The position numbers and the translations under genes were made by a program. Source: a virus. From it: a stretch of 64,000 nucleotides of DNA. This document shows positions 6,314-27,404 of this stretch, in pieces (positions within the stretch are counted from its first letter, which is position 1; every line of letters starts with the position of its first letter). Where the stretch lies: positions 47,915 through 111,914 of IMG/VR virus record IMGVR_UViG_3300012944_000001; one strand, written 5' to 3'. The notes below the pieces were generated by a model that was not told the origin of the DNA, ran no database searches, and saw only the letters and a program-made list of their open reading frames with translations.

Positions 6314-6384
6314 AGGAATATACGTCAATGGAAGACTAGCGGCCTCCAAATCCGCTGATGTGGGTTCGAATCCTACTATTCCTG
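6314..6384 (+). tRNA. tRNA-Trp (CCA)
   Basis: Acceptor AGGAATA/TATTCCT, anticodon loop CTCCAAA on a GCGG/CCGC stem, T arm GTGGG-TTCGAAT-CCTAC, and G73 as usual for Trp. Confidence 0.9.
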
Positions 6385-6385
6385 C

Positions 6386-6414
6386 TTGACAGAGACTAAC
6401 AACTCTGTTAGTAT
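6386..6414 (+). promoter_or_regulatory. Promoter upstream of tRNA-Asn and the Y-RNA cluster
   Basis: TTGACA (6386-6391), a 17-base spacer and TAGTAT (6409-6414) match the sigma70 consensus well. Overlapping inverted repeats fill the region (ACAGAG...CTCTGT; ACTAAC...GTTAGT) and may form an operator. It is the nearest good promoter to the Y-RNA genes and the Ro gene. Confidence 0.6.
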
Positions 6415-6450
6415 CAGTAAAATACCTTCCTCCTTGTAGGTAAGGTTTAT

Positions 6451-6522
6451 TCCTTGATAGCTCAATGGCAGAGCAGTCGACTGTTAATCGACCGGTTGTT
6501 GGTTCGAATCCAGCTCAGGGAG
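6451..6522 (+). tRNA. tRNA-Asn (GTT)
   Basis: Acceptor TCCTTGA/TCAGGGA, D arm GCTC/GAGC, anticodon arm GTCGA-CTGTTAA-TCGAC, T arm GTTGG-TTCGAAT-CCAGC and G73. Confidence 0.93.
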
Positions 6523-6583
6523 CCTTAGCCCCTTTTCAAGCCTCTCGATGAAGCTCAAATGAGAAGGGCCAAAATTTAAATTT

Positions 6584-6705
6584 GTGACGATGCGAAGAAT
6601 AGAGTTACTTCGGTTAATTAGTGGTTCGATTCCATTCTCTGTAGTAAAACACAGATAGGCGAGTATAAAAACTCGTACATACTTTATTCAAATTTTTCTA
6701 GTCAC
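6584..6705 (+). ncRNA. Y-RNA-like RNA, unit 1 (with tRNA-like module)
   Basis: An outer stem GTGAC/GTCAC (6584-6588, 6701-6705) is followed by an internal loop with GATGCG on the 5' side and TTTCTA on the 3' side. An inner stem GAATAGAG/CTTTATTC (6597-6604, 6682-6689) and then TTACTTC follow. This resembles the interrupted Ro-binding helix of Y RNAs. The distal part holds a T-arm (AGTGG-TTCGATT-CCATT), a closed TCTGT/ACAGA stem and a degenerate D-arm-like CGAG/CTCG hairpin. It is the first of five tandem units upstream of the Ro60 gene. Confidence 0.75.
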
Positions 6706-6711
6706 TTAAAC

Positions 6712-6804
6712 TTGATAGAAGGTTGGGGTAGCCTGCTAGCGGCTGTAATCGGGCGAAAACGTCCCTTGTAATACTGATACGAACGTTCACATCCCTTCTA
6801 TCAA
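6712..6804 (+). ncRNA. Structured RNA between Y-RNA units 1 and 2
   Basis: TTGATAGAAGG (6712-6722) and CCTTCTATCAA (6794-6804) form a perfect 11-bp closing stem. Inside are AGCC/GGCT and GGGCG-AAAA-CGTCCC hairpins. It lacks the GATGCG and TTTCTA signature of the Y-like units, so it is a different RNA. Its place in the cluster suggests cotranscription. Confidence 0.5.
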
Positions 6805-6811
6805 CTAACTT

Positions 6812-6952
6812 GACAGCGATGCGCAGATAAGAGATACTTCACAGGGAACTCCGGGTCGTAGGTTCGAATCCTACTCTATCGACTCTTCGGTAGATAGCTC
6901 AGTGGTAGAGCAGGGGTATATAAAGAACTTTTATCGACTTTTTCTAGCTGTC
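6812..6952 (+). ncRNA. Y-RNA-like RNA, unit 2 (permuted tRNA module)
   Basis: The outer stem is GACAGC/GCTGTC (6812-6817, 6947-6952), the loop has GATGCG and TTTCTA, and the inner stem is GATAAGAG/CTTTTATC (6826-6833, 6928-6935). The distal part holds, in order, a T-arm (GTAGG-TTCGAAT-CCTAC), a closed acceptor-like stem CTATCGAC/GTAGATAG with a short loop, and a D-arm (GCTC-AGTGGTA-GAGC). This is a tRNA elbow in circularly permuted order, as reported for bacterial YrlA RNAs. It is the best preserved of the five units. Confidence 0.82.
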
Positions 6953-6960
6953 TTTATTTT

Positions 6961-7053
6961 TATGACCAATGCGTAGGCACGGGGTTACTTCAAATTAATT
7001 GATAATTGACGGGCATAGCCCAGTAAACCTCAGCCGATTATTTCTAGGTCATA
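6961..7053 (+). ncRNA. Y-RNA-like RNA, unit 3 (compact)
   Basis: Outer stem TATGACC/GGTCATA (6961-6967, 7047-7053), then AATGCG and TTTCTA in the loop. The inner stem starts GGC/GCC and is irregular, followed by TTACTTC. The distal part has a GGGC-ATA-GCCC hairpin and no T-arm. It keeps the presumed Ro-binding helix without the tRNA-like module. Confidence 0.65.
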
Positions 7054-7066
7054 TAACTTAATATTT

Positions 7067-7139
7067 CTACCCGATGCGACGCCGCCGGTTACTTCAACCC
7101 TTCGCAGAAAAAATCCGGCCGCACATTTTTCTAGGGTGG
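7067..7139 (+). ncRNA. Y-RNA-like RNA, unit 4 (minimal)
   Basis: Outer stem CTACCC/GGGTGG (7067-7072, 7134-7139), GATGCG and TTTCTA in the loop, and a GC-rich inner stem GCCGCCGG/CCGGCCGC with one mismatch, followed by TTACTTC. At 73 bases it is the shortest unit and is essentially the helix plus a small loop. Confidence 0.65.
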
Positions 7140-7147
7140 ATCATTTT

Positions 7148-7255
7148 AGTTCCGATGCGTGGATTACTGGTTACTTCAATGCTAATGAAAAGGTACGGTT
7201 CGAATCCGTTTAAGGCATGGCGCCCACACACCAGAAATCATTATTTCTAGGAACT
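7148..7255 (+). ncRNA. Y-RNA-like RNA, unit 5
   Basis: Outer stem AGTTCC/GGAACT (7148-7153, 7250-7255), GATGCG and TTTCTA in the loop, inner stem GATTACTGG/CCAGAAATC with one mismatch, then TTACTTC. A T-arm (ACGG-TTCGAAT-CCGT) is present but no convincing D-arm. It is the last unit before a terminator and the Ro60 gene. Confidence 0.72.
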
Positions 7256-7265
7256 TATTAATCTT

Positions 7266-7307
7266 CCCCTTGGTTAGGCATAGCCTTACTTGAGGGGTTT
7301 ATTTTTA
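7266..7307 (+). terminator. Rho-independent terminator after the Y-RNA cluster
   Basis: CCCCTT...TGAGGGG encloses an AGGC-AT-AGCCT hairpin and is followed by a T-rich tract (TTTATTTTTAT). It would end the small RNAs and let some transcripts read into the Ro60 gene, whose ATG is 34 bases downstream. Confidence 0.75.
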
Positions 7308-7340
7308 TCTACTTAACGTACCACAACATAGGAGGATACA

Positions 7341-8960
7341 ATGGGTAAGTTCAATAAGGTTAACAGCACAGGCGTTCAGTCACCTATAAAGACTGTAGGA
7401 AAGATTATTAATCATGATGCTCGTGTAGCTTTTGCGCGGGATACCCAGTCTGAACTGTATTTGTTTGCAGTATCCAACTTTGTTGGTCAGGATACGTTCT
7501 ATGAGAATGCTAAGGCCAGCGATGATCGCTTTGTTATCCTTTCTCAAAAGGCCGCTGTAGCAGATCGTGCCTGGTTTGGCTACTTCGTGAGCTGGCTTCG
7601 TAACGAGGCATTCATGCGTAGTGCTGCTGTTGTGGCGGCTGTTGAGGGTGCCAAGGCATTACACGCGGCTGAGTCGTTTGTAGGGGCTGAGAATGCCTCC
7701 TGGCCCCGTCATATAGTTAGTGCTGCTCAAGCACGAGCTGATGAGCCCGGTGAAGTATTAGGATACTATGAAGCTAAGTACGGTAAGAATTTCCCGGCTT
7801 GGTTAAAGAAGGGTGTTGCGGACGGCGCAAAGCGTCTCTATAATGAGTATTCTCTTCTTAAGTACGATACAGTTTCTCACGGTTATCGTTTTTCTGATGT
7901 AATTCAGCTTACTCACCCTAAGCCTGATAATGAAATACAGGAACAACTATTTAAGTACGCGATGAATAGTCGATACAATAACACAGAGTTTGTTGGCCGA
8001 GAGAATCATCTGCCCATGATAGAGACTCGTAAGGCTATTATGGAAATGCCTGTTCGTAGTCGAAAGGCACTTATAGGTAAGGGCGGAACAGAGGTACAGA
8101 GCCTATTCAAGAATGCAGGAATGACGTGGGAAGCTCTGTCTGGCTGGCTTCAGGGTCCTATGGATGCTGCGGCTTGGGAAGCCGTTATTCCTTCTATGGG
8201 ATACATGGCGCTGCTTCGTAATCTTCGTAATTTCCAGAATGCTGGTATCCGTGCTAAGGTGCTGAAGGAAGTTCTTGGTAAGCTTGCTGATTTCGAGCAG
8301 GTTGCAAAGAGTAAGCAGTTCCCTTTCCGATTCCTTGCTGCTTACCAGGCAAATAAGGATAATCTACAGATCTCTGCCGCGCTAGAGAGTGCTTTGCAGG
8401 CTTCTTTGGCCAATGTCCCTTCCCTTAATGGGAATAGCTTGATTCTAGTTGATCGCTCTGGTAGCATGTTCCAGACTGGTGGAGGTGTCCAAGGACTCGA
8501 TCGTGCAGACACGGCTGCTATTTTCGGTACCGCTCTGGCTATGCAAGCAGAAAAGGCTGATCTTGTGCAGTACGGTTCAGCATGGTATGGTCAGGATAGT
8601 TCTTCCAAGGTAGTATCTTTCCGTAAGGGGAATTCTATTCTGCCGATGCTCAGTAAGTTTGAGAATCTTGGCGGAACAGACACCACTGGAGCTATTAAGC
8701 GACACTTGACACCGAAGCATGACCGAGTTATTCTCATCACTGATGAGCAGTACAACGGCTATGGTGTCGATCCAGGAAGCATTGTTCCTGCTAAGATTCC
8801 GATGTACACTTGGAATCTTGGAGGATATCAAGCGGCTCACAGTGAGTCTGGTTCAAAGAAGCGTCACACCTTTGGCGGATTGACTGATAAGGCATTTGTA
8901 CAGATTCCTATGATTGAGGCTGGGCAGAATGCTGTATGGCCTTGGGAGGCTAAGAAGTGA
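7341..8960 (+). CDS. rsr: Ro60 (SS-A/Ro) family RNA-binding protein, TROVE plus vWA domains
   Basis: This 539-residue protein has the two-part layout of Ro60/Rsr. Residues about 15-360 form the helical-repeat TROVE ring, which in known members binds misfolded RNA ends in its hole and Y RNA on its surface. Residues about 365-539 form a von Willebrand A fold with an intact metal site: D371-S373-S375, T446 and D468. In bacteria, Rsr with Y RNA gates RNA access to polynucleotide phosphorylase and helps RNA survival under stress. The ATG follows a perfect ATAGGAGG. Five Y-RNA-like genes lie directly upstream, which strongly supports a functional ribonucleoprotein. Ro-like genes are known in some actinobacteriophages. 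Confidence 0.95.
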   Translation: MGKFNKVNSTGVQSPIKTVGKIINHDARVAFARDTQSELYLFAVSNFVGQDTFYENAKASDDRFVILSQKAAVADRAWFGYFVSWLRNEAFMRSAAVVAAVEGAKALHAAESFVGAENASWPRHIVSAAQARADEPGEVLGYYEAKYGKNFPAWLKKGVADGAKRLYNEYSLLKYDTVSHGYRFSDVIQLTHPKPDNEIQEQLFKYAMNSRYNNTEFVGRENHLPMIETRKAIMEMPVRSRKALIGKGGTEVQSLFKNAGMTWEALSGWLQGPMDAAAWEAVIPSMGYMALLRNLRNFQNAGIRAKVLKEVLGKLADFEQVAKSKQFPFRFLAAYQANKDNLQISAALESALQASLANVPSLNGNSLILVDRSGSMFQTGGGVQGLDRADTAAIFGTALAMQAEKADLVQYGSAWYGQDSSSKVVSFRKGNSILPMLSKFENLGGTDTTGAIKRHLTPKHDRVILITDEQYNGYGVDPGSIVPAKIPMYTWNLGGYQAAHSESGSKKRHTFGGLTDKAFVQIPMIEAGQNAVWPWEAKK

Positions 8961-9049
8961 GTAGGTGGTTCTGTATTTTTTGTCGAGAATGGTGGAAGCC
9001 GAGAGAAGCAAAGTGTCCAACATGTAGCCGACCAAAACCGTTGTCTTGA
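8957..9049 (+). CDS. 30-residue zinc-ribbon microprotein coupled to Ro60
   Basis: The frame starts at a GTG whose last two bases begin the Ro60 TGA stop (GTGA overlap), with GGGAGG at the right distance. The product MSRWFCIFCREWWKPREAKC... holds two CxxC pairs, a four-cysteine zinc ribbon. The tight coupling suggests stoichiometric synthesis with Ro60. It could be a cofactor or adaptor, but the role is unknown. Confidence 0.65.
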   Translation: MSRWFCIFCREWWKPREAKCPTCSRPKPLS

Positions 9050-9080
9050 CTTTGACTCATACGATCTGATACAGTATTAA
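9046..9080 (+). promoter_or_regulatory. Possible promoter for the tRNA-Ala/Lys group
   Basis: Two overlapping readings fit: TTGACT (9046-9051) with TACAGT (9070-9075), or TTGACT (9052-9057) with TATTAA (9075-9080) and a 17-base spacer. It lies just before tRNA-Ala. Confidence 0.45.
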
Positions 9081-9122
9081 GAGCAGTTGGCGGACTGCCC
9101 TCTAGTAAAAAACCGCCACGAT

Positions 9123-9195
9123 GGGCCTATAGCATAATTGGGAATGCACCTCTTTTGCAAGGAGACGAGTGTCGGTTCGAATCCGACTAGGTCCA
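9123..9195 (+). tRNA. tRNA-Ala (TGC)
   Basis: Acceptor GGGCCTA/TAGGTCC, D arm GCAT/ATGC, anticodon loop TTTGCAA with a mismatch at 27-43, and T arm GTCGG-TTCGAAT-CCGAC. The G3-U70 pair that specifies alanine is present in the acceptor stem. Confidence 0.92.
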
Positions 9196-9208
9196 CGCGG
9201 AAGTCCGT

Positions 9209-9250
9209 ATTAGCTACCTAAACCGGTTGGGTCGGACCCAGAACGCTAAT
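9209..9250 (+). ncRNA. Small structured spacer
   Basis: ATTAGC (9209-9214) pairs with GCTAAT (9245-9250) around AACCGGTT and GGGTC/GACCC inverted repeats. There is no gene between tRNA-Ala and tRNA-Lys. Confidence 0.3.
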
Positions 9251-9280
9251 AACATGGGATAACAGAATATTAAAGAAAGT

Positions 9281-9296
9281 TAATTCGGCCGAATTA
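9281..9296. promoter_or_regulatory. 16-bp perfect palindrome, possible operator
   Basis: TAATTCGGCCGAATTA is fully self-complementary with no loop, as expected of a protein-binding DNA site more than of an RNA hairpin. It lies 27 bases before tRNA-Lys(CTT). Confidence 0.4.
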
Positions 9297-9322
9297 TACC
9301 TACTAGTATTTTGCCCATGCAT

Positions 9323-9395
9323 GCTCCGTTAGCTCAGTTGGTAGAGCATTCGCCTCTTAAGCGACAGGTCGTCCGTTCAAGTCGGACACGGAGCA
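9323..9395 (+). tRNA. tRNA-Lys (CTT)
   Basis: Acceptor GCTCCGT/ACGGAGC, D arm GCTC/GAGC, anticodon loop CTCTTAA and T arm GTCCG-TTCAAGT-CGGAC. Confidence 0.93.
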
Positions 9396-9437
9396 CTGAG
9401 TTTTAGTAGCGCGGTTTCTCTAAAAAACCGGGACAAT

Positions 9438-9510
9438 GATTCCTTAGCTCAGTTGGTAGAGCAGCGGACTTTTAATCCGAAGCGCGTCGGTTCGAGCCCG
9501 ACAGGAATCA
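9438..9510 (+). tRNA. tRNA-Lys (TTT)
   Basis: Acceptor GATTCCT/AGGAATC, D arm GCTC/GAGC, anticodon loop CTTTTAA and T arm GTCGG-TTCGAGC-CCGAC. The AGGA of its 3' acceptor strand also serves as the only visible ribosome site of the next gene. Confidence 0.93.
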
Positions 9511-9511
9511 C

Positions 9512-9664
9512 ATGAATATATTGAGAGATCTTTATACAGTTAAAGGTTTATGGTATTACGTGTGTCCACGTCCAAAATGTAAATTCACTACTGTAAGTAA
9601 CTTAACATCTAGAGCTGATGCTATCGGAGCAAGAGCTAATCATGAGAGGGAACACGATAATTAA
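9512..9664 (+). CDS. Small zinc-finger-like protein
   Basis: This 50-residue protein (MNILRDLYTVKGLWYYVCPR...) has C18-x4-C23 and two C-terminal histidines (H44, H48), a C2H2-like arrangement. The ATG lies one base after tRNA-Lys, and the ribosome site AGGA is inside the tRNA acceptor stem. Its stop overlaps the next ATG as TAATG. Function is unknown. Confidence 0.65.
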   Translation: MNILRDLYTVKGLWYYVCPRPKCKFTTVSNLTSRADAIGARANHEREHDN

Positions 9665-10230
9665 TGATCACTCCTCAGCCTGGAGACTTTGGATTAGTCG
9701 CCATTAAAGGCGGTGTAGGTAAACTGATCCGTATTGGTCAATGGTTGAATGGTGATGGTTTCAATGACTATGAACATGCTTTCATCTATATTGGTGAGGG
9801 TAAGATAGTAGAAGCTGAACCAGGCGGAGCACTTCTATCAGATATAAGTGGGTATGATGGTAGATTCATTCTATGGTCTACAGGTCTTATTCCTTTGACT
9901 GATATTCAAAGAAGTTCTATAATAGACATGGCTCTAAAACAAATTGGCACACCTTATAGTTTCTTAGATTATTTTGCTATAGCGCTTTATAGAGTTGGTA
10001 TTCGTCATCCAAAAGTATCTGATAGAGTTATCAGTTCAAAACATTTGATATGCTCTCAGTTAGTTGCCCAAGACTATGCCGATTCGGGAGCACCCGTAAC
10101 AAAGTATCCACCTTACCTGGTGACCCCTGGACGTTTGGCAGACTTTTTGGTAAGCTTCAGACACACAAAACGTCTAGGCAAGATGGTTCAAAAATCTGGA
10201 TCAAATAGCATTAATATTCAAATAGCCTAG
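9664..10230 (+). CDS. Permuted NlpC/P60-superfamily cysteine hydrolase
   Basis: This 188-residue protein has the order of the circularly permuted papain-like group (YiiX/LRAT-like). An early histidine, H38, sits in EHAFIYIGEGKIVEAEP, and a late nucleophile, C130, in HLICSQLVAQDYADSG. Such enzymes cleave amide or ester bonds, for example in peptidoglycan peptides or lipids. No signal peptide or transmembrane segment is seen, so it acts in the cytoplasm or is released at lysis. It is coupled to the preceding small gene. A role as endolysin is possible but unproven. Confidence 0.75.
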   Translation: MITPQPGDFGLVAIKGGVGKLIRIGQWLNGDGFNDYEHAFIYIGEGKIVEAEPGGALLSDISGYDGRFILWSTGLIPLTDIQRSSIIDMALKQIGTPYSFLDYFAIALYRVGIRHPKVSDRVISSKHLICSQLVAQDYADSGAPVTKYPPYLVTPGRLADFLVSFRHTKRLGKMVQKSGSNSINIQIA

Positions 10231-10235
10231 ATTAT

Positions 10236-10308
10236 GCATCCATAGCTCAACGGATAGAGCACTTGATTACGGATCAAGAGGTTGGGGGTTCGAATCCCTC
10301 TGGATGCA
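10236..10308 (+). tRNA. tRNA-Arg (ACG)
   Basis: Acceptor GCATCCA/TGGATGC, D arm GCTC/GAGC, anticodon arm CTTGA-TTACGGA-TCAAG and T arm GGGGG-TTCGAAT-CCCTC. A34 would need host deamination to inosine to read CGC and CGA. Confidence 0.93.
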
Positions 10309-10454
10309 CAGGGACATAGGGTTCATCTATGTGAGGGTTGTCCCTCGGAAAACACGGAGATCATAGAGTGCGTTCCTGCACGTCCAGACCAAGCAGGTCA
10401 GATTGACGGTACCTGAATATTACCGTTATTAAGCATTTAACTGTGGGAGGTACT

Positions 10455-10931
10455 TTGTCTCGTACATTAAAAGATCGTCCTTACTGGGTATTAAAGAATG
10501 ATCCAAAAATGTCTCGTTACGCTACTCACGCGCATATTGTTATGCAGCGGGAGGAGATCGGTGAAGAAGAGTATGACAGATATCCTTGGCGACCTGACGT
10601 AGATCCAGTAACACATATAAGAAAACTTTACAGAAGATGGTACGAGAATATACCTTGTACTCTTGATATACCAGAACAGTCACGTCATGCTAGACAGTAT
10701 GCTCGTTGGCAAGGTAGACATACCAACGAAGAAATGCTTGAAGGCAAATATTGTGAATATTGGCTGAGATACTATCCTAATATGAAGAGCGATAAAGCTT
10801 TCAAGCAGTTGACAAACCAGGCGATACGATCTAGAATAAATCAACAGCTTCGGGCAGCGTGTCATGAAGATCCTGAAGACGTTGACATAAGCACCGACAC
10901 GAAGTACAATAGTCGTGGCTGGTGGGACTGA
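10455..10931 (+). CDS. Hypothetical protein
   Basis: The start is placed at TTG 10455 behind GGGAGG (10445-10450), because the upstream in-frame GTG lies inside the ribosome site. This gives 158 residues (LSRTLKDRPYWVLKNDPKMS...). The protein is rich in Arg, Tyr and Trp and appears helical, with a basic central part. No family is recognised. Confidence 0.7.
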   Translation: MSRTLKDRPYWVLKNDPKMSRYATHAHIVMQREEIGEEEYDRYPWRPDVDPVTHIRKLYRRWYENIPCTLDIPEQSRHARQYARWQGRHTNEEMLEGKYCEYWLRYYPNMKSDKAFKQLTNQAIRSRINQQLRAACHEDPEDVDISTDTKYNSRGWWD

Positions 10932-10952
10932 TAAACACAATAGGAGGATGCA

Positions 10953-11111
10953 ATGGGCAAGCCTAAGGCAAATTCAAATGTTTCGATCCCTAAGAATCGT
11001 ACGGGAGTTGTAACTGAAGTCGGAGAGACTAGGTCACACGTTCTAATTGAAGATCCAGAGGACCCTAAGAAGAGTATTACAGTTATCGTTCCTAATAATA
11101 AGATTAAGTAG
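10953..11111 (+). CDS. Small beta-barrel-like protein
   Basis: This 52-residue protein starts behind TAGGAGG. A segment TGVVTEVGETRSHVLIEDP, followed by SITVIVPNNKI, fits a KOW/SH3-like strand pattern, as in three small proteins downstream. Nucleic-acid or ribosome binding is a possibility by analogy only. Confidence 0.6.
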   Translation: MGKPKANSNVSIPKNRTGVVTEVGETRSHVLIEDPEDPKKSITVIVPNNKIK

Positions 11112-11143
11112 TGGGATAGAACAAAGTGTGCTATACTTAGTGT

Positions 11144-11461
11144 ATGCCTTATAAAAATAGAGAAGATCAATACGCATCGCAAGCAGCACATCGGCAACGC
11201 AATTTTGAAGCTATGTGGTCGATTCTCCGCAACTCGTCATGTACGGATTGTGGAGAATATGATCCCATAGTGCTAGAGTTCGATCACCTTCCAGGTTACG
11301 AAAAGCGATTTGAAATTGCTAGAGCTGTAGGAAGTTCTACTAGAAGTTGGAAGGCTATAAAAGCAGAAATAGACAAGTGTGAAATCGTATGTGCTAACTG
11401 TCATAGACGTAGAACAAATCAGCGAGGATTGCACAAGCGTCATCTTGCTCCCGTAGACTAA
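11144..11461 (+). CDS. HNH endonuclease
   Basis: This 105-residue protein shows C33/C36, the catalytic FDHL (D47-H48) and the CxNCHRRRTNQ end of the HNH zinc fold. It is a small free-standing nuclease of the homing type. No good ribosome site precedes the ATG. Its last 15 bases overlap the 5' half of the acceptor and D region of tRNA-Arg(TCT), so the two genes share sequence. Location inside a tRNA array is common for mobile HNH genes. Confidence 0.82.
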   Translation: MPYKNREDQYASQAAHRQRNFEAMWSILRNSSCTDCGEYDPIVLEFDHLPGYEKRFEIARAVGSSTRSWKAIKAEIDKCEIVCANCHRRRTNQRGLHKRHLAPVD

Positions 11462-11519
11462 TGGACAAGTCACCAGCCTTCTAAGCTGTTAAATGGGGGT
11501 TCGAATCCCTCCGGGAGTA
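11447..11519 (+). tRNA. tRNA-Arg (TCT)
   Basis: Acceptor GCTCCCG/CGGGAGT, D arm GACT/AGTC, anticodon loop CTTCTAA on a CAGC/GCTG stem and T arm GGGGG-TTCGAAT-CCCTC. The 5' 15 bases are also the 3' end of the HNH gene. Confidence 0.92.
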
Positions 11520-11552
11520 CGTAAGTATAGTTAAACACAATGGGAGGCAATT

Positions 11553-11750
11553 GTGGGATATAAGTTTAGAAAAGGCCAAGAAGTAGATACGGTCGATGGT
11601 AAGGACGGCAGAATTACTTCTCGATCGGATGATTTCGGTAGGCAACCACGATATGTAGTAAATGGCAAGCTATATTTTGAGGAAGAACTTCAGGCACAAA
11701 CTTCGGACGAAAAGCCAGCAAAGAAGAGTCGCTGGGGTAGAAATAAGTAA
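11553..11750 (+). CDS. KOW/SH3-like small protein
   Basis: This 65-residue protein starts at GTG behind GGGAGG. The run FRKGQEVDTVDGKDGRITSR followed by RYVVNGKLYFEEEL matches the small beta-barrel pattern of KOW-type domains, with a basic tail (KPAKKSRWGRNK). Such folds bind RNA, ribosomes or RNA polymerase. Function here is unknown. Confidence 0.65.
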   Translation: MGYKFRKGQEVDTVDGKDGRITSRSDDFGRQPRYVVNGKLYFEEELQAQTSDEKPAKKSRWGRNK

Positions 11751-11772
11751 GTTAAAAGCCCTTAGGGGCCAT

Positions 11773-11843
11773 GCCCGCTTAGGTTAATGGAAGACCAGTA
11801 GTTTTACACACTACATGCGGGGGTTCGATTCCCTCAGCGGGTA
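11773..11843 (+). tRNA. tRNA-Val (TAC)
   Basis: Acceptor GCCCGCT/AGCGGGT, D arm GGTT/GACC, anticodon arm GTAGT-TTTACAC-ACTAC and T arm GGGGG-TTCGATT-CCCTC. Confidence 0.93.
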
Positions 11844-11866
11844 CTCGTAACAAGCAGGAGGCAATT

Positions 11867-12070
11867 ATGGCAAAAGTAGGCGACATCGTAAAGATGCAAA
11901 AAGGAACATACAAGGATCGTCTGGGAGTAGTTATTGCTATCCGTAATAATATTCTGTGTGATGTAAAGCTAGCTCGTCCAGGTGAGCGGCGTTCCAGAAT
12001 TAGTCTGGATATGCCTGGAATAGTAGTTACCAATTGTCTTGAAATTGAAGATTTCATCATATCTAAATAG
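11867..12070 (+). CDS. KOW-domain small protein
   Basis: This 67-residue protein starts behind CAGGAGG. VGDIVKMQKGTYKDRLGVVI is a clear KOW-type opening: a turn with GTYKDRLGVV, as in ribosomal L24/NusG motifs. Strands for a small barrel follow. It may bind RNA or the transcription machinery. Two similar proteins flank it. Confidence 0.7.
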   Translation: MAKVGDIVKMQKGTYKDRLGVVIAIRNNILCDVKLARPGERRSRISLDMPGIVVTNCLEIEDFIISK

Positions 12071-12076
12071 TTTTAT

Positions 12077-12155
12077 GGGTCTGTAAGGTTTCGTCTGAAC
12101 TTAAAGCCGCACGTCGGAAACTTTCAGCACCCCGGTTCGATTCCGGGCAGATCCA
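12077..12155 (+). tRNA. tRNA-like gene with aberrant anticodon arm (identity undetermined)
   Basis: The acceptor GGGTCTG/CAGATCC and T arm CCCGG-TTCGATT-CCGGG are perfect, and a D-like AGGT/ACTT arm is present. The anticodon region folds as AAAG-CCG-CACGT-CGG-AAA-CTTT, with an interrupted stem and no U33-containing seven-base loop. It may be a decayed tRNA, a tRNA with an inserted segment, or a tRNA-like RNA that does not decode. Confidence 0.5.
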
Positions 12156-12159
12156 CTTT

Positions 12160-12236
12160 GCGCATTGATCTAATCCGCATGGTGTGGAGTTGGTCTGCAA
12201 AACCAATGATTTCCGGTTCGATTCCGGTAATGCGCT
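12160..12236 (+). tRNA. tRNA-Cys (GCA)
   Basis: Acceptor GCGCATT/AATGCGC, D arm TCTA/TGGA with a long loop, anticodon arm TTGGT-CTGCAAA-ACCAA, T arm TCCGG-TTCGATT-CCGGT and discriminator U73, as expected for Cys. Confidence 0.92.
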
Positions 12237-12249
12237 CTTGGAGGATAGC

Positions 12250-12402
12250 ATGAAACAAGGAACAATAACTAAGATATATGGAAAATACAAAGCGGAATAT
12301 GTAAAACCTGATCGTAAGTATGGAAGACATTGGGTAACGATTTTAGAAGGCCCTGATATAGGAAGAACTATAACTGTTCCCGCAGATCGTCTTGATAAGT
12401 AA
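12250..12402 (+). CDS. KOW-like small protein
   Basis: The ATG at 12250 follows TTGGAGG; a longer frame from 12184 would start inside tRNA-Cys and is rejected. The 50-residue product (MKQGTITKIYGKYKAEYVKP...) has the strand-turn pattern WVTILEGPDIGRTITVPADR of a small barrel. It is third in the series of such genes in this stretch. Confidence 0.65.
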   Translation: MKQGTITKIYGKYKAEYVKPDRKYGRHWVTILEGPDIGRTITVPADRLDK

Positions 12403-12406
12403 ATAT

Positions 12407-12492
12407 GGAGAAGTGGCTGAGTTGGTCTAAGGCATCTGATTGCTAATCAGAAGGGTGTAAAAGCTCCGCAGGTTCGAATCCTGTCTTCTCCG
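12407..12492 (+). tRNA. tRNA-Ser (GCT)
   Basis: Acceptor GGAGAAG/CTTCTCC, anticodon arm TCTGA-TTGCTAA-TCAGA, long variable arm (class II) and T arm GCAGG-TTCGAAT-CCTGT. Confidence 0.94.
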
Positions 12493-12531
12493 CTCTGGTA
12501 TCAGTCCTATATCAGGAACCTGAAAGACGAC

Positions 12532-12611
12532 GTGTAGTCCGGATTAGTAAGGTAGCTAAATATACATAAAAGAAGTGCTCGACTACACATACGCTTTTAT
12601 GTATAATTTAG
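12532..12611 (+). ncRNA. Predicted H-type pseudoknot RNA
   Basis: CTAAATATACATAAAAG (12556-12572) pairs with 12594-12611 over 17 bp with one bulge. Its 21-base loop contains GACTACAC (12581-12588), which pairs perfectly with GTGTAGTC upstream (12532-12539). The two helices form a pseudoknot. It lies between the two tRNA-Ser genes, with no reading frame. Confidence 0.5.
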
Positions 12612-12621
12612 TATGGACATT

Positions 12622-12709
12622 GGAAGTTCCAACCGATAGATGGCGCCGGTCGCAGTCTTGAAAACTGTTGGGTGTAATAGCCGTAGGGGTTCGACCCCCC
12701 TAGCTTCCG
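12622..12709 (+). tRNA. tRNA-Ser (TGA)
   Basis: Acceptor GGAAGTT/AGCTTCC, D arm ACCG/CGGT, anticodon arm GCAGT-CTTGAAA-ACTGT, long variable arm and T arm AGGGG-TTCGACC-CCCCT. Confidence 0.9.
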
Positions 12710-12761
12710 CTGGCTGATAGTATTGACTATTGAATCACTATGTTATAGTGTGGCCTAACTT

Positions 12762-12837
12762 GCTCCAGTGGCCAAGTCTGGTGAAGGCGCCCGTCTTATA
12801 AGCGGGAGATGCGTCGGTTCAAATCCGACCTGGAGTA
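12762..12837 (+). tRNA. tRNA-Ile (TAT) with a leucine-like body
   Basis: Acceptor GCTCCAG/CTGGAGT, anticodon arm CCCGT-CTTATAA-GCGGG and T arm GTCGG-TTCAAAT-CCGAC. The 27 bases at the 3' end, including flanking bases, are identical to tRNA-Leu(CAA) at 5608. The anticodon reads AUA. Confidence 0.87.
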
Positions 12838-12838
12838 C

Positions 12839-12895
12839 AAAGACTGCTATCCGTTAGATTCGGATATAATCCTAGTTGGACACTAGCAGTCCTTT
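12839..12895 (+). ncRNA. Structured spacer between the tRNA-Ile genes
   Basis: AAAGACTGCTA (12839-12849) pairs with TAGCAGTCCTTT (12884-12895) over 11 bp with one bulge. It encloses ATCC/GGAT and CTAG/CTAG hairpins in a three-way junction. The last base is the first base of tRNA-Ile(GAT), so it may affect 5' processing. Confidence 0.4.
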
Positions 12896-12968
12896 CAGGT
12901 ATAGTGAAATCTGGTCATCACAACACTCTGATAAAGTGTAATTCTGGGTTCAAATCCCGGTACCTGGA
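12895..12968 (+). tRNA. tRNA-Ile (GAT)
   Basis: Acceptor TCAGGTA/TACCTGG, D arm GTGA/TCAC, anticodon arm ACACT-CTGATAA-AGTGT and T arm CTGGG-TTCAAAT-CCCGG. The first pair is T-G. Confidence 0.9.
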
Positions 12969-12984
12969 CGTTAAGGAGATAACT

Positions 12985-13065
12985 ATGATTAAATGTTCAA
13001 GATGCAAAGCAAAGAATATAAAAGGTAGTCGTTGGTGTCATAGATGTGGCAAGGAGTTAAGTTAA
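12985..13065 (+). CDS. 26-residue zinc-ribbon microprotein
   Basis: MIKCSRCKAKNIKGSRWCHR CGKELS contains two CxxC knuckles (C4/C7 and C18/C21), a complete zinc ribbon. AAGGAG precedes the ATG. The stop overlaps the thioredoxin start as TAATG. The pairing with a thioredoxin gene is notable, but function is unknown. Confidence 0.65.
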   Translation: MIKCSRCKAKNIKGSRWCHRCGKELS

Positions 13066-13379
13066 TGTATTCGGTAACTGATGCTACATTTCATGAAGTA
13101 TTACACAACAATAAGTCTGTCATTGTAGATTTTTGGGCACCCTGGTGCGGTCCTTGTCGTCAAGTAGCACCTGTGCTAGACTCTTTATCACAAGAGCATA
13201 CAGATATTACTTTTGTCAAAATGGACATTGATACAAATCATATGACATCTAATAAGTATGAAATATTATCTGTTCCAACAATTGCACTATTTATTAATGG
13301 TGATTTAGTAAAAACAGTAGTTGGAGCAAGACCGAAAGTAGCTCTTGAAAGAGAATTACTTTCTGCCCTATATCAATAG
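13065..13379 (+). CDS. trx: Thioredoxin
   Basis: The start is set at ATG 13065, coupled to the previous stop and behind AAGGAG. The 104-residue protein has the full thioredoxin fold with active site WCGPC (C28, C31), the buried Asp in VDFWAP and the cis-proline in SVPTIALF. It reduces disulfides in the cytoplasm using host thioredoxin reductase. In phages it may support ribonucleotide reductase or polymerase processivity; no such partner is seen in this window. Confidence 0.93.
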   Translation: MYSVTDATFHEVLHNNKSVIVDFWAPWCGPCRQVAPVLDSLSQEHTDITFVKMDIDTNHMTSNKYEILSVPTIALFINGDLVKTVVGARPKVALERELLSALYQ

Positions 13380-13385
13380 GGTTAT

Positions 13386-13458
13386 GGTGTTTGAGGCCAA
13401 ACGGATAGGCGCCTGGTTGTGGTCCAGGTTAAAGCGGGTTCGACTCCCGTCATTCACC
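13386..13458 (+). tRNA. tRNA-His (GTG)
   Basis: Anticodon arm CCTGG-TTGTGGT-CCAGG, T arm GCGGG-TTCGACT-CCCGT, an encoded G at -1 opposite C73 as histidine tRNAs need, and an acceptor stem with two T-T mismatches. Confidence 0.88.
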
Positions 13459-13564
13459 CTTAAGGTCCAGAGTAACCATAAAAATCCTCCTCTCTGGTAT
13501 GCAATGGATGCCTCTCACACCTCTATATAACGAGGAAGGTGGAGGATAAGGCTCCTGCGCCAAT

Positions 13565-13645
13565 GGGTGAGTTGAGCAATTGGTTGGCTCAGCGGACTGT
13601 AAATCCGTCTCTTCGGACATGGGGGTTCGAATCCCTCCTTACCCA
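13565..13645 (+). tRNA. tRNA-Tyr (GTA)
   Basis: Acceptor GGGTGAG/CTTACCC, D arm GAGC/GCTC, anticodon arm GCGGA-CTGTAAA-TCCGT, long variable arm with a CTTCGG loop and T arm GGGGG-TTCGAAT-CCCTC. It is the last tRNA of the region. Confidence 0.94.
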
Positions 13646-13659
13646 CCTTAAGGAAATAA

Positions 13660-17800: not shown

Positions 17801-17840
17801 ATAGCCTGCACTGTATTATTACGGTGCAGGCTATTTTTAT
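17801..17840 (+). terminator. Rho-independent terminator
   Basis: ATAGCCTGCAC (17801-17811) pairs with GTGCAGGCTAT (17824-17834), followed by TTTTTATTT. It ends the operon that starts at the metallophosphatase. Confidence 0.92.
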
Positions 17841-19290: not shown

Positions 19291-20865
19291 ATGACAACCG
19301 AAATAGAATTAGATGAATTAACTGCTGAAGAACTAGATGCGATAAATAAAACTCGTATCGATTTGGATCCACATTCTAAGGCTTTTGTGGATGCCTTGGT
19401 AGAGAGACTGTTAATATTTGCTGACGAACTTTCCGGTCATCCACTTTATGGCTATCAAAGACCTTTCGCAGCTCGTTTAATAGAATCAGTTATCATCAAT
19501 GATGGGGCGACAGTAACGGCTTTGTTCTCTCGTCAGTCAGGAAAAACTGAAACAGTAGCAGCCACTGTGGCTACCCTTATGATAATGCTGCCCCGGCTAG
19601 CTAAAGTAGAACCCTTCAATGAGTGGTTAGATGATTTTAAAGAAGGTGTGTGGGTTGGTGCTTTTGCTCCTGTAGATGACATGGCCAAGACCTTGTTCTC
19701 GCGTATTGTATCTATGCTTACTTCGGAACGAGCGCAAGCCATTCTTTTGGATCCCGCTATAGATGAAAAAGTAAAAGGTCGTGGATCTGAAATTAAGCTG
19801 GAGAAGTGCGGATCTTTAGTACGTCGTCAAACTGCTCACCCTAGAGCTAATATTGAAGGAAAGACTTATCATATTGCTTTGTTGGATGAGGCGCAGGTTG
19901 CAGATCAAAAAGTAGTAGACAAATCTATACGTCCTATGCTTGCTTCAACTAATGGTTCTTTTGTTATGACAGGAACTCCTACCTATGAAAAGGGAGTATT
20001 CCACAGAGAGATAACACATAATAAAAGAAATGGCACAAAGCGTGGAGCTAGGATTAATCATTTTGAAGCCGATTATCGTGAAGTATCCAGATGGAATCAG
20101 CGTTATGAGAAAGCCGTAGCGGGAGACATGCTGCGCATGGGATTTGATTCCGATGAGTTTAAACTATCCTATCGCCTTATCTGGCTTCTGGAACAAGGAA
20201 TGTTCACAACTTCTGAGCGTCTGGATGAGCTTGGCGATAAGTCTATGGAAACAGTAAAGAGCTATTACACTACTCCCATAATCATAGGTATTGATCCTGC
20301 ACGAAAGATCGACAGTACTATTGTTACTGCCATGTTCGTTGACTGGGAAAGACGAGATGAATTCGGTTATTACCATACACGTATCTTAAACTGGTTGGAT
20401 CTTCAAGGACAAGGTTGGGAAGCTCAGTACCATAGAATTGTAGAGTTTGTTTCCAAATATAATGTATGGGCTATAGGAGTAGACTCTGGAGGAATGGGAG
20501 ATCTATTCATTTCTCGATTAGAGGTACTATTACCTCATATAACCATTGTTGATGTTTCTTCCCAAAGACCTGCGCAATCAGACAGATGGAAATATCTGAG
20601 AGAAGTCATAGATCGTGGAAAGATTAGCTGGCCTGCCCACGCTAAAACGAGAAATCTTCGTACCTATAGAAACTTTGTCCAGCAGATGTCTGATCTCCAG
20701 GTAAAGTTTGAGGGACCTTATATGTTGGCAGAGGCTCCCAAGGAAGCTAATGCACATGATGACTACTGTGATTCTTTGTCTATTGCCTTAAGCGTGATTC
20801 CTGAGAGTATTCAGGAAGAAGTATCTATTTCGAACAATCCATTTTATGATAGAAGAAGAAGTTAA
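19291..20865 (+). CDS. terL: Terminase large subunit
   Basis: This 524-residue protein has the ATPase Walker A RQSGKT (K85), Walker B LLDEAQ (D199-E200), coupling motif GTPTYEK, and the RNase H-like nuclease with acidic residues in GIDPARKIDST, GVDSGGMGD and HDDYCDS. It cuts concatemeric DNA and drives it into the prohead through the portal. No small terminase was recognised nearby. It opens the structural block, with GGGAGAA before the ATG. Confidence 0.96.
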   Translation: MTTEIELDELTAEELDAINKTRIDLDPHSKAFVDALVERLLIFADELSGHPLYGYQRPFAARLIESVIINDGATVTALFSRQSGKTETVAATVATLMIMLPRLAKVEPFNEWLDDFKEGVWVGAFAPVDDMAKTLFSRIVSMLTSERAQAILLDPAIDEKVKGRGSEIKLEKCGSLVRRQTAHPRANIEGKTYHIALLDEAQVADQKVVDKSIRPMLASTNGSFVMTGTPTYEKGVFHREITHNKRNGTKRGARINHFEADYREVSRWNQRYEKAVAGDMLRMGFDSDEFKLSYRLIWLLEQGMFTTSERLDELGDKSMETVKSYYTTPIIIGIDPARKIDSTIVTAMFVDWERRDEFGYYHTRILNWLDLQGQGWEAQYHRIVEFVSKYNVWAIGVDSGGMGDLFISRLEVLLPHITIVDVSSQRPAQSDRWKYLREVIDRGKISWPAHAKTRNLRTYRNFVQQMSDLQVKFEGPYMLAEAPKEANAHDDYCDSLSIALSVIPESIQEEVSISNNPFYDRRRS

Positions 20866-20908: not shown

Positions 20909-21346
20909 ATGGCTGAAATGTACCAGGAGGCAGGACGCGCCGTACAGCTTGCGCCTGCTCCAAGATTCCCTGAAAGAGACCGTGGCGCAGTTAACTACGA
21001 AGGTAAGACGGCATCAAACCCTGAGCGTCGTGGACCTTTGCGTTTTGAAGAAGGTCTAGCCACTGATACAGACGTTCCTAATGATTTTGAATTAGGTGTT
21101 ATGCAGGGCTACCGTACCGCTCCCGGCCGCCCTAACCACAACATGAATGTATTCGAGAAGCCTGCTGCTGAGACAATGCGTGAGCGTGCACATGTAGGCT
21201 CTGCTGCATGGATTGATTCTGCTGGTATGACCGGAGAATTCATGCACGGAGTTAATGTAGATACTAATGCTTCTCGTCGCTTTGAGCAAGTAAATCGTTC
21301 TGGTGGACGTTATGAGCGTCTTCACGGGGCCATTGTTACCGACTAA
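20909..21346 (+). CDS. Hypothetical virion-associated protein
   Basis: This 145-residue protein is rich in Arg, Glu, Pro and Gly and looks mostly disordered (RFPERDRGAVNYEGKTASNP). Its place between terminase and capsid genes suggests a head-associated or internal protein. No domain is recognised. Confidence 0.7.
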   Translation: MAEMYQEAGRAVQLAPAPRFPERDRGAVNYEGKTASNPERRGPLRFEEGLATDTDVPNDFELGVMQGYRTAPGRPNHNMNVFEKPAAETMRERAHVGSAAWIDSAGMTGEFMHGVNVDTNASRRFEQVNRSGGRYERLHGAIVTD

Positions 21347-21366
21347 TTAAACTAAAGGAATACTAT

Positions 21367-21573
21367 ATGGACTCCACTGATATAACTAATCGTTTTACGT
21401 TTCATCCGGCATCCTCTGAACAAGGAGCCATATATGGCTCTATTCGTTTATATGCAAAAGATTTTGCTACTTGGCTTGACAGCACGTTGCCAGATAGTAG
21501 AGAAAAGTCTTTAGCTATAACTCATTTGGAAGAAGTAGTTTTCTGGAGCAATGCTTCAGTAGCTAGACACTAA
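21367..21573 (+). CDS. acb2: Acb2-like cyclic-nucleotide sponge (anti-CBASS)
   Basis: This 68-residue protein ends in the helical hairpin signature DSREKSLAITHLEEVVFWSN with ASVAR after it, and opens RFTFHPASSEQGAIYGSIR. Both match my recollection of the Acb2/Tad1-type hairpin family found in many phages. Characterised Acb2 proteins are hexamers that bind cyclic di- and trinucleotides and so block CBASS and related signalling. AAGGAATACT precedes the ATG. It lies in the head operon and would be made late unless another promoter serves it. Confidence 0.78.
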   Translation: MDSTDITNRFTFHPASSEQGAIYGSIRLYAKDFATWLDSTLPDSREKSLAITHLEEVVFWSNASVARH

Positions 21574-21586: not shown

Positions 21587-21841
21587 ATGAGCGTATTTAC
21601 AGAACTAGAGACAAAGCTAGCTGACCTAAAAGATAAGGTAGAAGGAGATCTTCATACCTTAGTAGTCAAGTTAGAATCTATTTTCCAGCACGTACACTTG
21701 GCTCCCGTTGAGGATCTAGTCAAGGAAGCCGTTGCTGCTGATATCCATGCTGCTGCTACTCAGGTTGAGACTATTTCTGACACCCTTCGTTCTGAAGTGA
21801 CAGATGCAGTTACTCAGGCTGTAAAGCCAGCTACTAAGTAA
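21587..21841 (+). CDS. Hypothetical helical protein
   Basis: This 84-residue, alanine- and valine-rich protein is predicted to be nearly all amphipathic helix (ETKLADLKDKVEGDLHTLVV). It follows the Acb2-like gene after 13 bases. It could be a small virion or scaffolding helper. No family is recognised. Confidence 0.65.
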   Translation: MSVFTELETKLADLKDKVEGDLHTLVVKLESIFQHVHLAPVEDLVKEAVAADIHAAATQVETISDTLRSEVTDAVTQAVKPATK

Positions 21842-21869: not shown

Positions 21870-22238
21870 ATGGCCGTATTTACCGCAACCGTAACAGTAG
21901 GTACTAGCTCTACTACAACTACTTTCACAGGCTGGGCTCCTTATGTAGCTGTAACTGTTCCTGCCGGAGCAGCTAACTCAGTCTATGTAACAACTGATGG
22001 AAGCACACCAACTGTGGCTGGTGCAGACGCAGTTGCTTGTCCTATCGGAACTACTTACTTGCGTAATAGAACTGAGCGACCTGAGATAACTGCTACTACT
22101 CCACTTGCTACAGATCCTTCTGCACCAGGCGCTTTCACTGCTGCTGCTACACCTGTAAAGGGTATTGGTACAGCCAGCGTAGCCGGAGTAACTATCAGCC
22201 TAGTTTCTAGTGCTGGTGTACAGCCTGTTATTGGTTAA
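21870..22238 (+). CDS. Small beta-rich virion-like protein
   Basis: This 122-residue Thr/Ala/Val-rich protein contains VYVTTDGSTPTVAGADAVAC, which resembles the W.RTD..PTIAGDD segment of the proteins at 22482 and 22800. The three appear to share one beta-sandwich domain, probably a capsid decoration or head-fibre base. Evidence is similarity within the window plus location. Confidence 0.65.
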   Translation: MAVFTATVTVGTSSTTTTFTGWAPYVAVTVPAGAANSVYVTTDGSTPTVAGADAVACPIGTTYLRNRTERPEITATTPLATDPSAPGAFTAAATPVKGIGTASVAGVTISLVSSAGVQPVIG

Positions 22239-22481: not shown

Positions 22482-22784
22482 ATGGCTGCAAGTAGAGCAA
22501 AATCAGATACTCTAACAATAAATACGGAATATACAGTTAATTTTCCACAGTATCTTGCGAATATCACAGTGATACATAGAGGCACTACAGGTACTATATG
22601 GTTACGTACTGATGGTAATGAGCCCGTAATTTTGGCAGACGACAATTATCCTGTGTTACCGGGGCAAGCTGTCACATTTCCTAATGGCATTTTATCTCAA
22701 GAACCTATTACTCGATCTGTTAGTGGAACAAGTGTATTATTAATATCAGATACAGCAATTCCATTTACTGTTTACGCCTCTTGA
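22482..22784 (+). CDS. Beta-sandwich virion-like protein, paralogue
   Basis: This 100-residue protein shares with the next gene the core HRGTTGTIWLRTDGNEPVIL followed by an ADD turn, and a C-terminal LISDTAIPFTVY strand. It is probably a repeated domain exposed on the head. AGGAAATACT precedes the ATG. Confidence 0.65.
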   Translation: MAASRAKSDTLTINTEYTVNFPQYLANITVIHRGTTGTIWLRTDGNEPVILADDNYPVLPGQAVTFPNGILSQEPITRSVSGTSVLLISDTAIPFTVYAS

Positions 22785-22799: not shown

Positions 22800-23102
22800 A
22801 TGGCTATTCATACTCAAAGTGGAAGTACTGTAGCGAATACGGTACTACCAGTCATTTTTAACAGTTGGAATTCTACTGTAGAAATTATAAATAGAGGTAC
22901 TACAGATATATGGTTCCGTACAGATAAAATTGATCCTACTATAGCGGGAGATGATTGTCATTTTGTTGCCGCTAATAGTTGGGTTGATGCCATAAGGAAT
23001 GGTCAAGTACCTTCAGAACCTGCCACCGGAATAGTATCAACTACTGAAGTACGTCTAATATCTTCTGCCATCGTACCTTTTACAATTGAGGTGCAACAAT
23101 AA
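22800..23102 (+). CDS. Beta-sandwich virion-like protein, paralogue
   Basis: This 100-residue protein has NRGTTDIWFRTDKIDPTIAG then DD, and ends LISSAIVPFTIEV, parallel to the gene at 22482. Its stop overlaps the next ATG. Tandem duplication with divergence is the likely origin. Confidence 0.65.
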   Translation: MAIHTQSGSTVANTVLPVIFNSWNSTVEIINRGTTDIWFRTDKIDPTIAGDDCHFVAANSWVDAIRNGQVPSEPATGIVSTTEVRLISSAIVPFTIEVQQ

Positions 23103-23694: not shown

Positions 23695-25404
23695 ATGTCA
23701 ATGACTTTCTACTCTCCTTCAATGAGAGCTTCTGCTTCAGACCTAGCGATTGCTATAAGCCCGCTAGGTCTAGTTGAGCTTTCTGACGAAGAGTTTGAAA
23801 TGCATGGACCACGTTTAAATAGATACGCAGAATACTGGGCCTGGTACTTAGGGCATCATTGGGGAACTCGTAGAGAATTTGGTGATCCTCAACTTACCTT
23901 TAATTACATAAAAGCCTTTGCTGATTATATTAATAACTTTTGCTTCTCCAGAGGAATTTCCTTTGATACCATTAAAGAGTACGATCATATTATTCCTGCC
24001 TTACTAAAGAGAATTTGGCAACAGGATAATAATATGAAAGCTGTTACTTGGGAATTGGGTCAGCAAGGAGGTGTCTCTGGAGATGCTTTCGTTAAAGTAG
24101 CTTATGAACCCGCTTGGGAAGATGAAGCAGGAAATATTCATCCCGGAAGAGTTCGTATCCTTCCTCTTAATTCTGCTTATTGTTTCCCTACGTGGCACCC
24201 ACACGATAGAGACAGACTTCTTGAGTTTAAATTAAAGTACCGTTTCTGGGGAACAAATACGGAAGGTACTAGATCTGTATATACATATACTGAACTTATT
24301 CGTTCTGATACCATCAGAGAATTTGTTAATGATGAACTAATTGATGAGCGCCCAAATGCTCTAGGCGTTATTCCTATTGTGCATATTGCTAATCATCCCG
24401 CTTCCGGATCCCCTTGGGGAATGTCCGATGTGCAGGATTTGATTACCCTTAATCGTCAGTACAATGAAACTGCTACTGATATCGCAGACATCGTTAATTA
24501 TCATGCAGCTCCTATTACCGTTGTTATCGGTGCGAAACCTTCTCAGCTTGAGAAAGGAACCAACCGCGTTTGGAGTATTGGTAACAAGGATGTAGATATT
24601 CATAACCTTGAAAATGGCGTAGATCTACAGTGGCCCTTGGAAGTTCTTAATACTCTTAAGCGTTCCATGCATGAAATGACCGGAGTACCTGAGTCTGCTT
24701 TGGGCCAGTCACAGCCCATTTCAAATACCTCTGGTGTGGCTCTTGCTATTCAGTTTTATCCTTTAATTCAAAAGTTCGAGCTAAAGAAGATACAATATGG
24801 TAAGGGACTAGCAAAAATAAATGAATTAGCATTAAGAACTTTATTTATTTTTGAACCCGAAGCAGCTTTATATGATCCTACTACTGAAGGTATTATTAAA
24901 GAAGGTCAACCTTTGGCAGTAGATCCAGCAGATCCACTTCTTTATTTCAGTGATATCGATTGGCCATCTCCACTTCCAGTGGATCGTTTAGTCAAGTTGA
25001 ATGAGATTGCTGCAATGATGAATATGGATATGGAAAGTCGTAGAGGAGCTTTGAAGGATCTGGGAGAACAATTCCCAGACGATAAGCTACAAGAAATCTA
25101 TGATGAACTGCACGAAGATGCTATTCGTGATGGTGCACTACGTATGCTAAGAACACAAATTGATTCTGTAACTGCTGAACTTACCGGAATGGTTCCACAA
25201 CCAGACGGTACTTCAGAAGTAGTAGATCCAGGTAAGGATGCCGAAGGCAATCCTAAGCCTCCTTCTGGAGGACCAGGAACGATTAATAAAATCGACTTGG
25301 ATAAGCTTGATGGTGCAGGTTCTATGAATGCCTTACGTGAGGCAGTGGTCACAGCGTACGGAACAAAGCTAGGTTCTCGACAGCTACCTACAGACGACAA
25401 CTAA
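23695..25404 (+). CDS. Portal protein
   Basis: This 569-residue protein has the alpha/beta portal layout, with the crown/wing start YWAWYLGHHWGTRREFGDPQ and a stem region near TGVPESALGQSQPISNTSGV, typical of SPP1-type portals. It has an acidic, Pro/Gly-rich tail. It forms the dodecameric DNA entry ring. Two ATG codons (23695, 23701) are possible; the first follows AGGATG. Scaffold and capsid genes follow directly. Confidence 0.92.
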   Translation: MSMTFYSPSMRASASDLAIAISPLGLVELSDEEFEMHGPRLNRYAEYWAWYLGHHWGTRREFGDPQLTFNYIKAFADYINNFCFSRGISFDTIKEYDHIIPALLKRIWQQDNNMKAVTWELGQQGGVSGDAFVKVAYEPAWEDEAGNIHPGRVRILPLNSAYCFPTWHPHDRDRLLEFKLKYRFWGTNTEGTRSVYTYTELIRSDTIREFVNDELIDERPNALGVIPIVHIANHPASGSPWGMSDVQDLITLNRQYNETATDIADIVNYHAAPITVVIGAKPSQLEKGTNRVWSIGNKDVDIHNLENGVDLQWPLEVLNTLKRSMHEMTGVPESALGQSQPISNTSGVALAIQFYPLIQKFELKKIQYGKGLAKINELALRTLFIFEPEAALYDPTTEGIIKEGQPLAVDPADPLLYFSDIDWPSPLPVDRLVKLNEIAAMMNMDMESRRGALKDLGEQFPDDKLQEIYDELHEDAIRDGALRMLRTQIDSVTAELTGMVPQPDGTSEVVDPGKDAEGNPKPPSGGPGTINKIDLDKLDGAGSMNALREAVVTAYGTKLGSRQLPTDDN

Positions 25405-26366: not shown

Positions 26367-27404
26367 ATGGCAGGATCAGCCATTACGGGCACACCGAATA
26401 TCTCTGGTGCTCCAACATCTTACCCTGGTGGTAGCTCAGCTCTTTCTCCAGCTATCCAGACCGTATGGTCAAAAGAAATTCTATTCCAAGCAATGCCGAT
26501 TCTAAGATTCGAGCAATTTGCTGTAAAGAAGACAGAGCTTGGTGTTACTCCAGGTCTTACAATTAACTTTATGCGTTACAACAACCTAGGACAAGCTAGC
26601 CAGCTTGTTGAAGGTATCCGTATGCAGACTGCTCCACTGACAGCTAGTCAGTTCAGCATTACTGTAGCTGAGCAGGGATTCGCTGTTGCTGTTTCTGAGC
26701 TTCTGCTAAACGCTTCCTTTGATGATGTTATGGCTTCTGCCTCACGTCTTCTAGGACGTAACATGGCTACCTATCTAGACGTATCTGCTCGTAATACTCT
26801 TCTACAGGCTTCTTCTCAGCTCTTCGGGTATGAGAAGGACACTGGTGCATTGAACAACCAGGTTTACTACAACACCGGTACTCCTGGTACAGGTAATGTT
26901 TCCATGACTGGAGACTTCAACCTAACTTCTCAGACAATCTACGACGCAGTAGAAACACTGGCAACAAAGAACGTACCCCGCCTAGGGGAGACATATGTCT
27001 GTTTTGTCCACCCTCACCAGAGCCGTTGGCTACGTAACGATCCTCAGTTCATTGAGATGACTAAGTATGCAGCCCCCGGTAACTTTATGCTAGGTGAAAT
27101 CGGGCGCCTAAATGACGTAGTCTTCATCGAGACTACTCAAGTTCGTAATGTTGTCGGTGGCGCTGGCGCCGGTTGGACAACAGATACAACAACTGGTGGT
27201 GTAACAACTGGTAATGGAAACGCTAACCGTTATGACTCTATCTTTATCGGAGACAATGCATTCGGTCATGCTATTTCTCTACCCGTTGAATTACGTGACG
27301 GCGGAATTCTTGACTTCGGAAGAGAGCACGCACTTGCGTGGTACGCTATCTGGGGACTTGGCCTGATTACTGATATTTCTGTAGTTATCGCCTCTACTAA
27401 CTAA
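26367..27404 (+). CDS. Major capsid protein (N4 gp56-like, HK97 fold)
   Basis: This 345-residue protein matches the N4 gp56/HK97-fold pattern: an N-terminal arm, an E-loop region (LTINFMRYNNLGQASQLVEG), helices around VSELLLNASFDDVMASASRL, and a P-domain end with HPHQSRWLRNDPQF. It builds the icosahedral shell. A TTATCG...CGATAA pairing upstream (about 26317-26355) may form a leader hairpin. Two stable hairpins follow the gene. Confidence 0.92.
   Translation: MAGSAITGTPNISGAPTSYPGGSSALSPAIQTVWSKEILFQAMPILRFEQFAVKKTELGVTPGLTINFMRYNNLGQASQLVEGIRMQTAPLTASQFSITVAEQGFAVAVSELLLNASFDDVMASASRLLGRNMATYLDVSARNTLLQASSQLFGYEKDTGALNNQVYYNTGTPGTGNVSMTGDFNLTSQTIYDAVETLATKNVPRLGETYVCFVHPHQSRWLRNDPQFIEMTKYAAPGNFMLGEIGRLNDVVFIETTQVRNVVGGAGAGWTTDTTTGGVTTGNGNANRYDSIFIGDNAFGHAISLPVELRDGGILDFGREHALAWYAIWGLGLITDISVVIASTN

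Follow-up and report, generated by a model that had tools for sequence, protein, structure and literature searches.

A compact Acb2/Tad1 hairpin-domain protein encoded in the head gene cluster of a Streptomyces-phage-like genome

The stretch of DNA analyzed here, referred to as the window, makes up the right-hand 64 kb (64,000 nucleotides) of a 111.9-kb virus record (IMG/VR IMGVR_UViG_3300012944_000001) and carries, between the terminase and portal genes, a small gene encoding an Acb2/Tad1 hairpin-domain protein. The open reading frame of this acb2-like gene can be read in the sequence as 68 codons from ATG to TAA at 21367–21573 on the plus strand, and a probable ribosome-binding sequence, AAAGGA, stands upstream of it (21354–21359, plus strand). 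It is the only gene in the window that matches PF24729, and it lies 20 bp from the preceding gene and 13 bp from the next, both of which are co-directional. Synteny identifies the left neighbor, gpA (20909–21346, plus strand; 145 amino acids), as constant and as retained in relatives without acb2, while the right neighbor, gpC (21587–21841, plus strand; 84 amino acids), comes immediately after gpA in genomes that lack acb2. Both are of unknown function, with no match in Pfam or PHROG for gpA and only weak coiled-coil-like matches for gpC. The terminase large subunit (19291–20865; phrog_2, E = 4.5e-28), the portal protein (23695–25404; phrog_64, E = 7.9e-41) and the major capsid protein (26367–27404; phrog_1357, E = 2.1e-67), all on the plus strand, flank the gene, confirming the head-cluster location proposed in an earlier sequence-only reading. 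That reading also held the late-gene placement to be important, which is plausible; the location would fit late expression. A promoter scan was at chance level (22 found vs. 24.8 expected), and we therefore make no promoter claim.

The same reading named the product as an Acb2-like protein, and in this it was upheld, as Pfam, the relatives and the predicted fold agree. The Pfam check that it had suggested is clearly positive: the protein matches PF24729 (Acb2/Tad1 hairpin) over the whole profile (positions 1–58 of 58) with 63.7 bits (E = 1.8e-17), 2.4 times the curated cut-off of 27 bits. The Vs.4 protein of phage T4, which is a proven Acb2 (PMC12657218), scores 71.5 bits on the same profile, and the family is therefore common to the acb2-like protein and a proven sponge. 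A profile built from 39 relatives matches the structure named “Acb2 homolog 43” (PDB 9ptq) over 58 residues (E = 1.6e-9) and, weakly, Tad1 chains (E about 0.003). The AlphaFold2 model (mean predicted local distance difference test score, 91.6) has helices at residues 3–9, 18–40 and 45–66 and no strands. The predicted fold is thus a short N-terminal helix followed by a two-helix hairpin, arranged as in Acb2, where a short N-terminal helix precedes two long antiparallel helices (PMC12043709). Among viral structure models in BFVD, the top matches are nearly all named Acb2/Tad1 hairpin, with only one at E < 0.001. NCBIfam holds no model for the protein, and PADLOC returned only a weak, irrelevant SduA match.

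The family is already known, and the protein described here is a fairly ordinary member of it. A tblastn search with the protein gave matches in 414 phage records in GenBank, and Acb2 has already been annotated in actinophages by SEA-PHAGES papers (PMC13348362, PMC11953737). Most relatives are still annotated as hypothetical, or even as phosphomannomutase. The latter label, “putative phosphomannomutase”, is carried by Acb2-family homologs in several Paenibacillus phage records, such as that of Likha (L109:2489-2692), and is likely a misannotation.

The protein can be compared with characterized and annotated relatives. In T4 Acb2, mutation of Tyr8 to alanine disrupts cyclic dinucleotide binding, and Phe82 stacks on the base (PMC12657218). 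T4 Tyr8 aligns with Phe12 of the acb2-like protein, although the alignment is weak in that stretch and comes from MAFFT alone; the position is Phe or Tyr in 35 of the 39 relatives. Fifteen residues further on, the basic T4 Lys23 aligns with Arg27, which is conserved in 38 of the 39. The two proteins also share their Pfam family and a tryptophan in helix 2, but T4 Acb2 has a much longer inter-helix insertion, and vs.4 adjoins regB and other vs genes, away from head genes. The C-terminal signature that the earlier reading took as Acb2-type corresponds to residues 43–62 (DSREKSLAITHLEEVVFWSN). It is a hairpin loop and helix 2 pattern, SRE..LA.TH.EE..W.N, common to Tad1 (SRExxxALTHVEEALMWMN) and largely to Acb2 homolog 43, but T4 Acb2 lacks the SREKS loop. 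Acb2 homolog 43, for which we found no descriptive paper, is likewise a small hairpin protein of similar length (76-residue chain) that has R-E-K-S in its hairpin turn and T.LEE within its second helix, while it is distant in sequence (28%) and reads TKLEE..FF.T where the acb2-like protein reads THLEE..FW.N. Tad1 has an N-terminal antiparallel β-sheet domain (PMC12043709); since this is absent from the 68-residue, strand-free protein, we do not file it as Tad1. With a loop of the Tad1 and 9ptq type rather than that of T4, the protein therefore joins the size and N-terminus of Acb2 to a Tad1-like turn. Two close counterparts, BRock gp154 and GiJojo gp63 (Streptomyces phages; both annotated as hypothetical), sit in this slot too, between gpA and portal, and are 51–54% identical, but their PF24729 scores are lower and their loop and helix 2 read SLAIGALLDDVVFQTN instead of SLAITH-LEEVVFWSN.

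Some caution is needed in reading conservation in the loop, because the relatives of set A1 were fetched with patterns that included EKSLAITH, and conservation of that stretch in this set is therefore inflated. Among 16 close relatives, mostly found via gpA, the loop varies and takes the forms RELSLALTN, RELSSAITK, RDKSLAITH and, in one case, SAEKTKAVG. Across these 16 the median ratio of nonsynonymous to synonymous substitution (dN/dS) is about 0.18, with 57 of 120 pairs not saturated, which shows a functional protein maintained by purifying selection, with no diversifying selection overall. Mean identity is 58% for Acb2 compared to 85–90% for terminase, gpA and portal; gpC and gpD are as variable as Acb2, so we give less weight to the idea that fast evolution here points to an arms race in particular.

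We inspected the slot in 50 further loci that were found via gpA, independently of acb2. Nearly all close relatives have acb2 in the slot, while in two loci (L056 and L062) gpC directly follows gpA, with gpA, gpC and portal all kept; a PF24729 gene is missing from the whole of the L056 record (110 kb). In the terminase tree, L062 nests among acb2-positive relatives and L056 branches elsewhere, so that at least one loss of acb2, and probably two independent events, must be supposed. The gene is also absent from all 30 more distant relatives (L073–L102; terminase 50–55%), including records of 88–108 kb. In most of their slots the occupant is an unrelated basic protein of about 80–100 amino acids, and in a few it is a larger unrelated one. 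In L073–L096 the small basic protein, present in most slots between gpA and portal, follows the pattern NP.LWN......A......GG..V.S...V.P..RD. Insertion occurs as well, as two loci carry related genes between gpA and acb2 (L005, 2813–3349; L069, 2524–3051), the product of the latter being a recombination endonuclease VII-type match.

Alleles are also exchanged. One pair of relatives (L053 and L003) is 98% identical in terminase, 97% in gpA and 96% in portal but only 53% in Acb2, while two other pairs are closer in Acb2 than in terminase (93% vs. 85% for L070 and L058; 88% vs. 84% for L064 and L065). The rank correlation between identity in terminase and identity in Acb2 is 0.17, compared to 0.62 for gpA and 0.69 for portal; the low value may be due in part to the shortness of the gene, a factor that does not touch the individual pairs. 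The history of acb2 is decoupled from that of its neighbors, and the gene is optional, being exchanged and lost between related phages. Such behavior is typical of anti-defense genes.

The genome itself is Streptomyces-phage-like and related to Borockvirus. Its terminase, gpA and head genes are closest to those of the Streptomyces phages BRock, GiJojo, LuckySocke, Alone3 and pSt2308 (terminase 80–83% identical), which suggests an actinobacterial host, probably Streptomyces or a related soil bacterium. These phages share the order terminase-gpA-acb2-…-portal, which extends to L017 and L023 (terminase 60%), and the slot position is common to BRock, GiJojo and about 20 environmental relatives. 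Elsewhere, the family is found beside ThyX (CRB1), RecA (Racecar) or SSB and nicotinate ribosyltransferase (JoyLin), by tRNA genes (Syleon) or RusA (Bantam), upstream of terminase (Cheetobro) and next to portal (Chidiebere). As the members of the family that were sampled from other phages lie mostly in early or middle gene regions, the late placement is a trait of this lineage and not a rule of the family. In Curtobacterium phage JoyLin (L105:2459-3399), nicotinate ribosyltransferase comes directly after the cyclic nucleotide sequestering protein, suggesting a pair of sponge and restorer of nicotinamide adenine dinucleotide.

Other features of the window lie around the head genes. Upstream, 28 tRNA genes covering most amino acids are packed into 12 kb (1804–13647), followed by a T4 Rnl1-type RNA ligase gene (PF09511; 14103–15200); an RNA ligase gene also follows the acb2 homolog in Gordonia phage Chidiebere. 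A strong terminator-like hairpin (15 pairs and a T-run; 17801–17834) precedes a KTSC-domain gene and terminase, at what could be the head operon's boundary. Between acb2 and portal are tandem paralogs of phrog_32632, of unknown function (22482–22784 and 22800–23102), with a weak third member at 21870–22238.

By analogy with its characterized relatives, we consider it very probable that the acb2-like protein is a minimal Acb2-type sponge, binding the cyclic nucleotides with which bacteria raise the alarm against viruses, and that it is encoded by an exchangeable anti-defense gene of the head operon. Protomers would assemble into a small oligomer, which in Acb2 is a hexamer, with pockets formed by the N-terminal segment (Phe12, Arg27) together with the loop of the hairpin and helix 2 (SREKS..TH.EE..W.N). 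These pockets would trap cyclic di- and/or trinucleotides without cleaving them, so that effectors of the cyclic oligonucleotide-based antiphage signaling system (CBASS) type stay inactive, and co-transcription with the head genes would let the sponge accumulate in the late phase. Some observations weigh against this assignment. T4 Phe82 aligns with Ala66 (hhalign, residues 48–65 on 64–81), a position that is alanine in all 39 relatives, and the protein is therefore not a T4-type Acb2 and its pocket not T4-like. Additionally, Foldseek gave no significant match in the PDB, with the hepatitis B virus core protein and other top matches being noise; this may reflect low sensitivity for tiny helical proteins. 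One could read the alanine as the sign of a decayed remnant that has lost nucleotide binding, but the low dN/dS and the retention of family motif residues make this the least probable explanation.

A head-assembly or virion protein that shares the hairpin fold by chance, held between terminase and portal for a packaging role, would account for the conservation of the position, which the window shares with Borockvirus and with L017 and L023, where terminase is only 60% identical. We rejected a virion or packaging protein because relatives do without the gene cleanly (L056, L062 and all 30 of L073–L102); alleles also swap independently of terminase and portal, the same family occurs far from head genes in other phages, and such a role is very improbable. 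The choice of target among sponges is less firm. That the target is CBASS, and not Thoeris, type III CRISPR or more than one system, is what we infer, and the ligand range of the protein cannot be read from its sequence. The loop is nearer to Tad1 than to T4 Acb2, and Tad1 is reported in a review to bind glyco-cyclic ADP-ribose, cyclic dinucleotides and cyclic trinucleotides (PMC12043709), so a sponge aimed mainly at the glyco-cyclic ADP-ribose of Thoeris, or at the signals of a different system such as type III CRISPR, has something in its favor, though we think it unlikely.

If the protein is an Acb2-type sponge, the family gains a compact lineage of 68 residues in which the loop is like that of Tad1 and the size is that of Acb2; the lineage is common in phages infecting Actinobacteria and Paenibacillus. 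The part most worth following is the slot inside the head operon, with its swapping of alleles and its gains and losses. As a tentative proposal, the gpA–gpC slot may be an in-place anti-defense cassette whose sponge gene is co-transcribed with those of the head and whose alleles (REKS..TH, REL..TN, REL..TK and RDKS types) pass between phages to match the differing nucleotide signals of their hosts. If this were true, sequence type would predict ligand specificity. Near-identical phage pairs with different or missing alleles offer a natural experiment on what each allele protects against.
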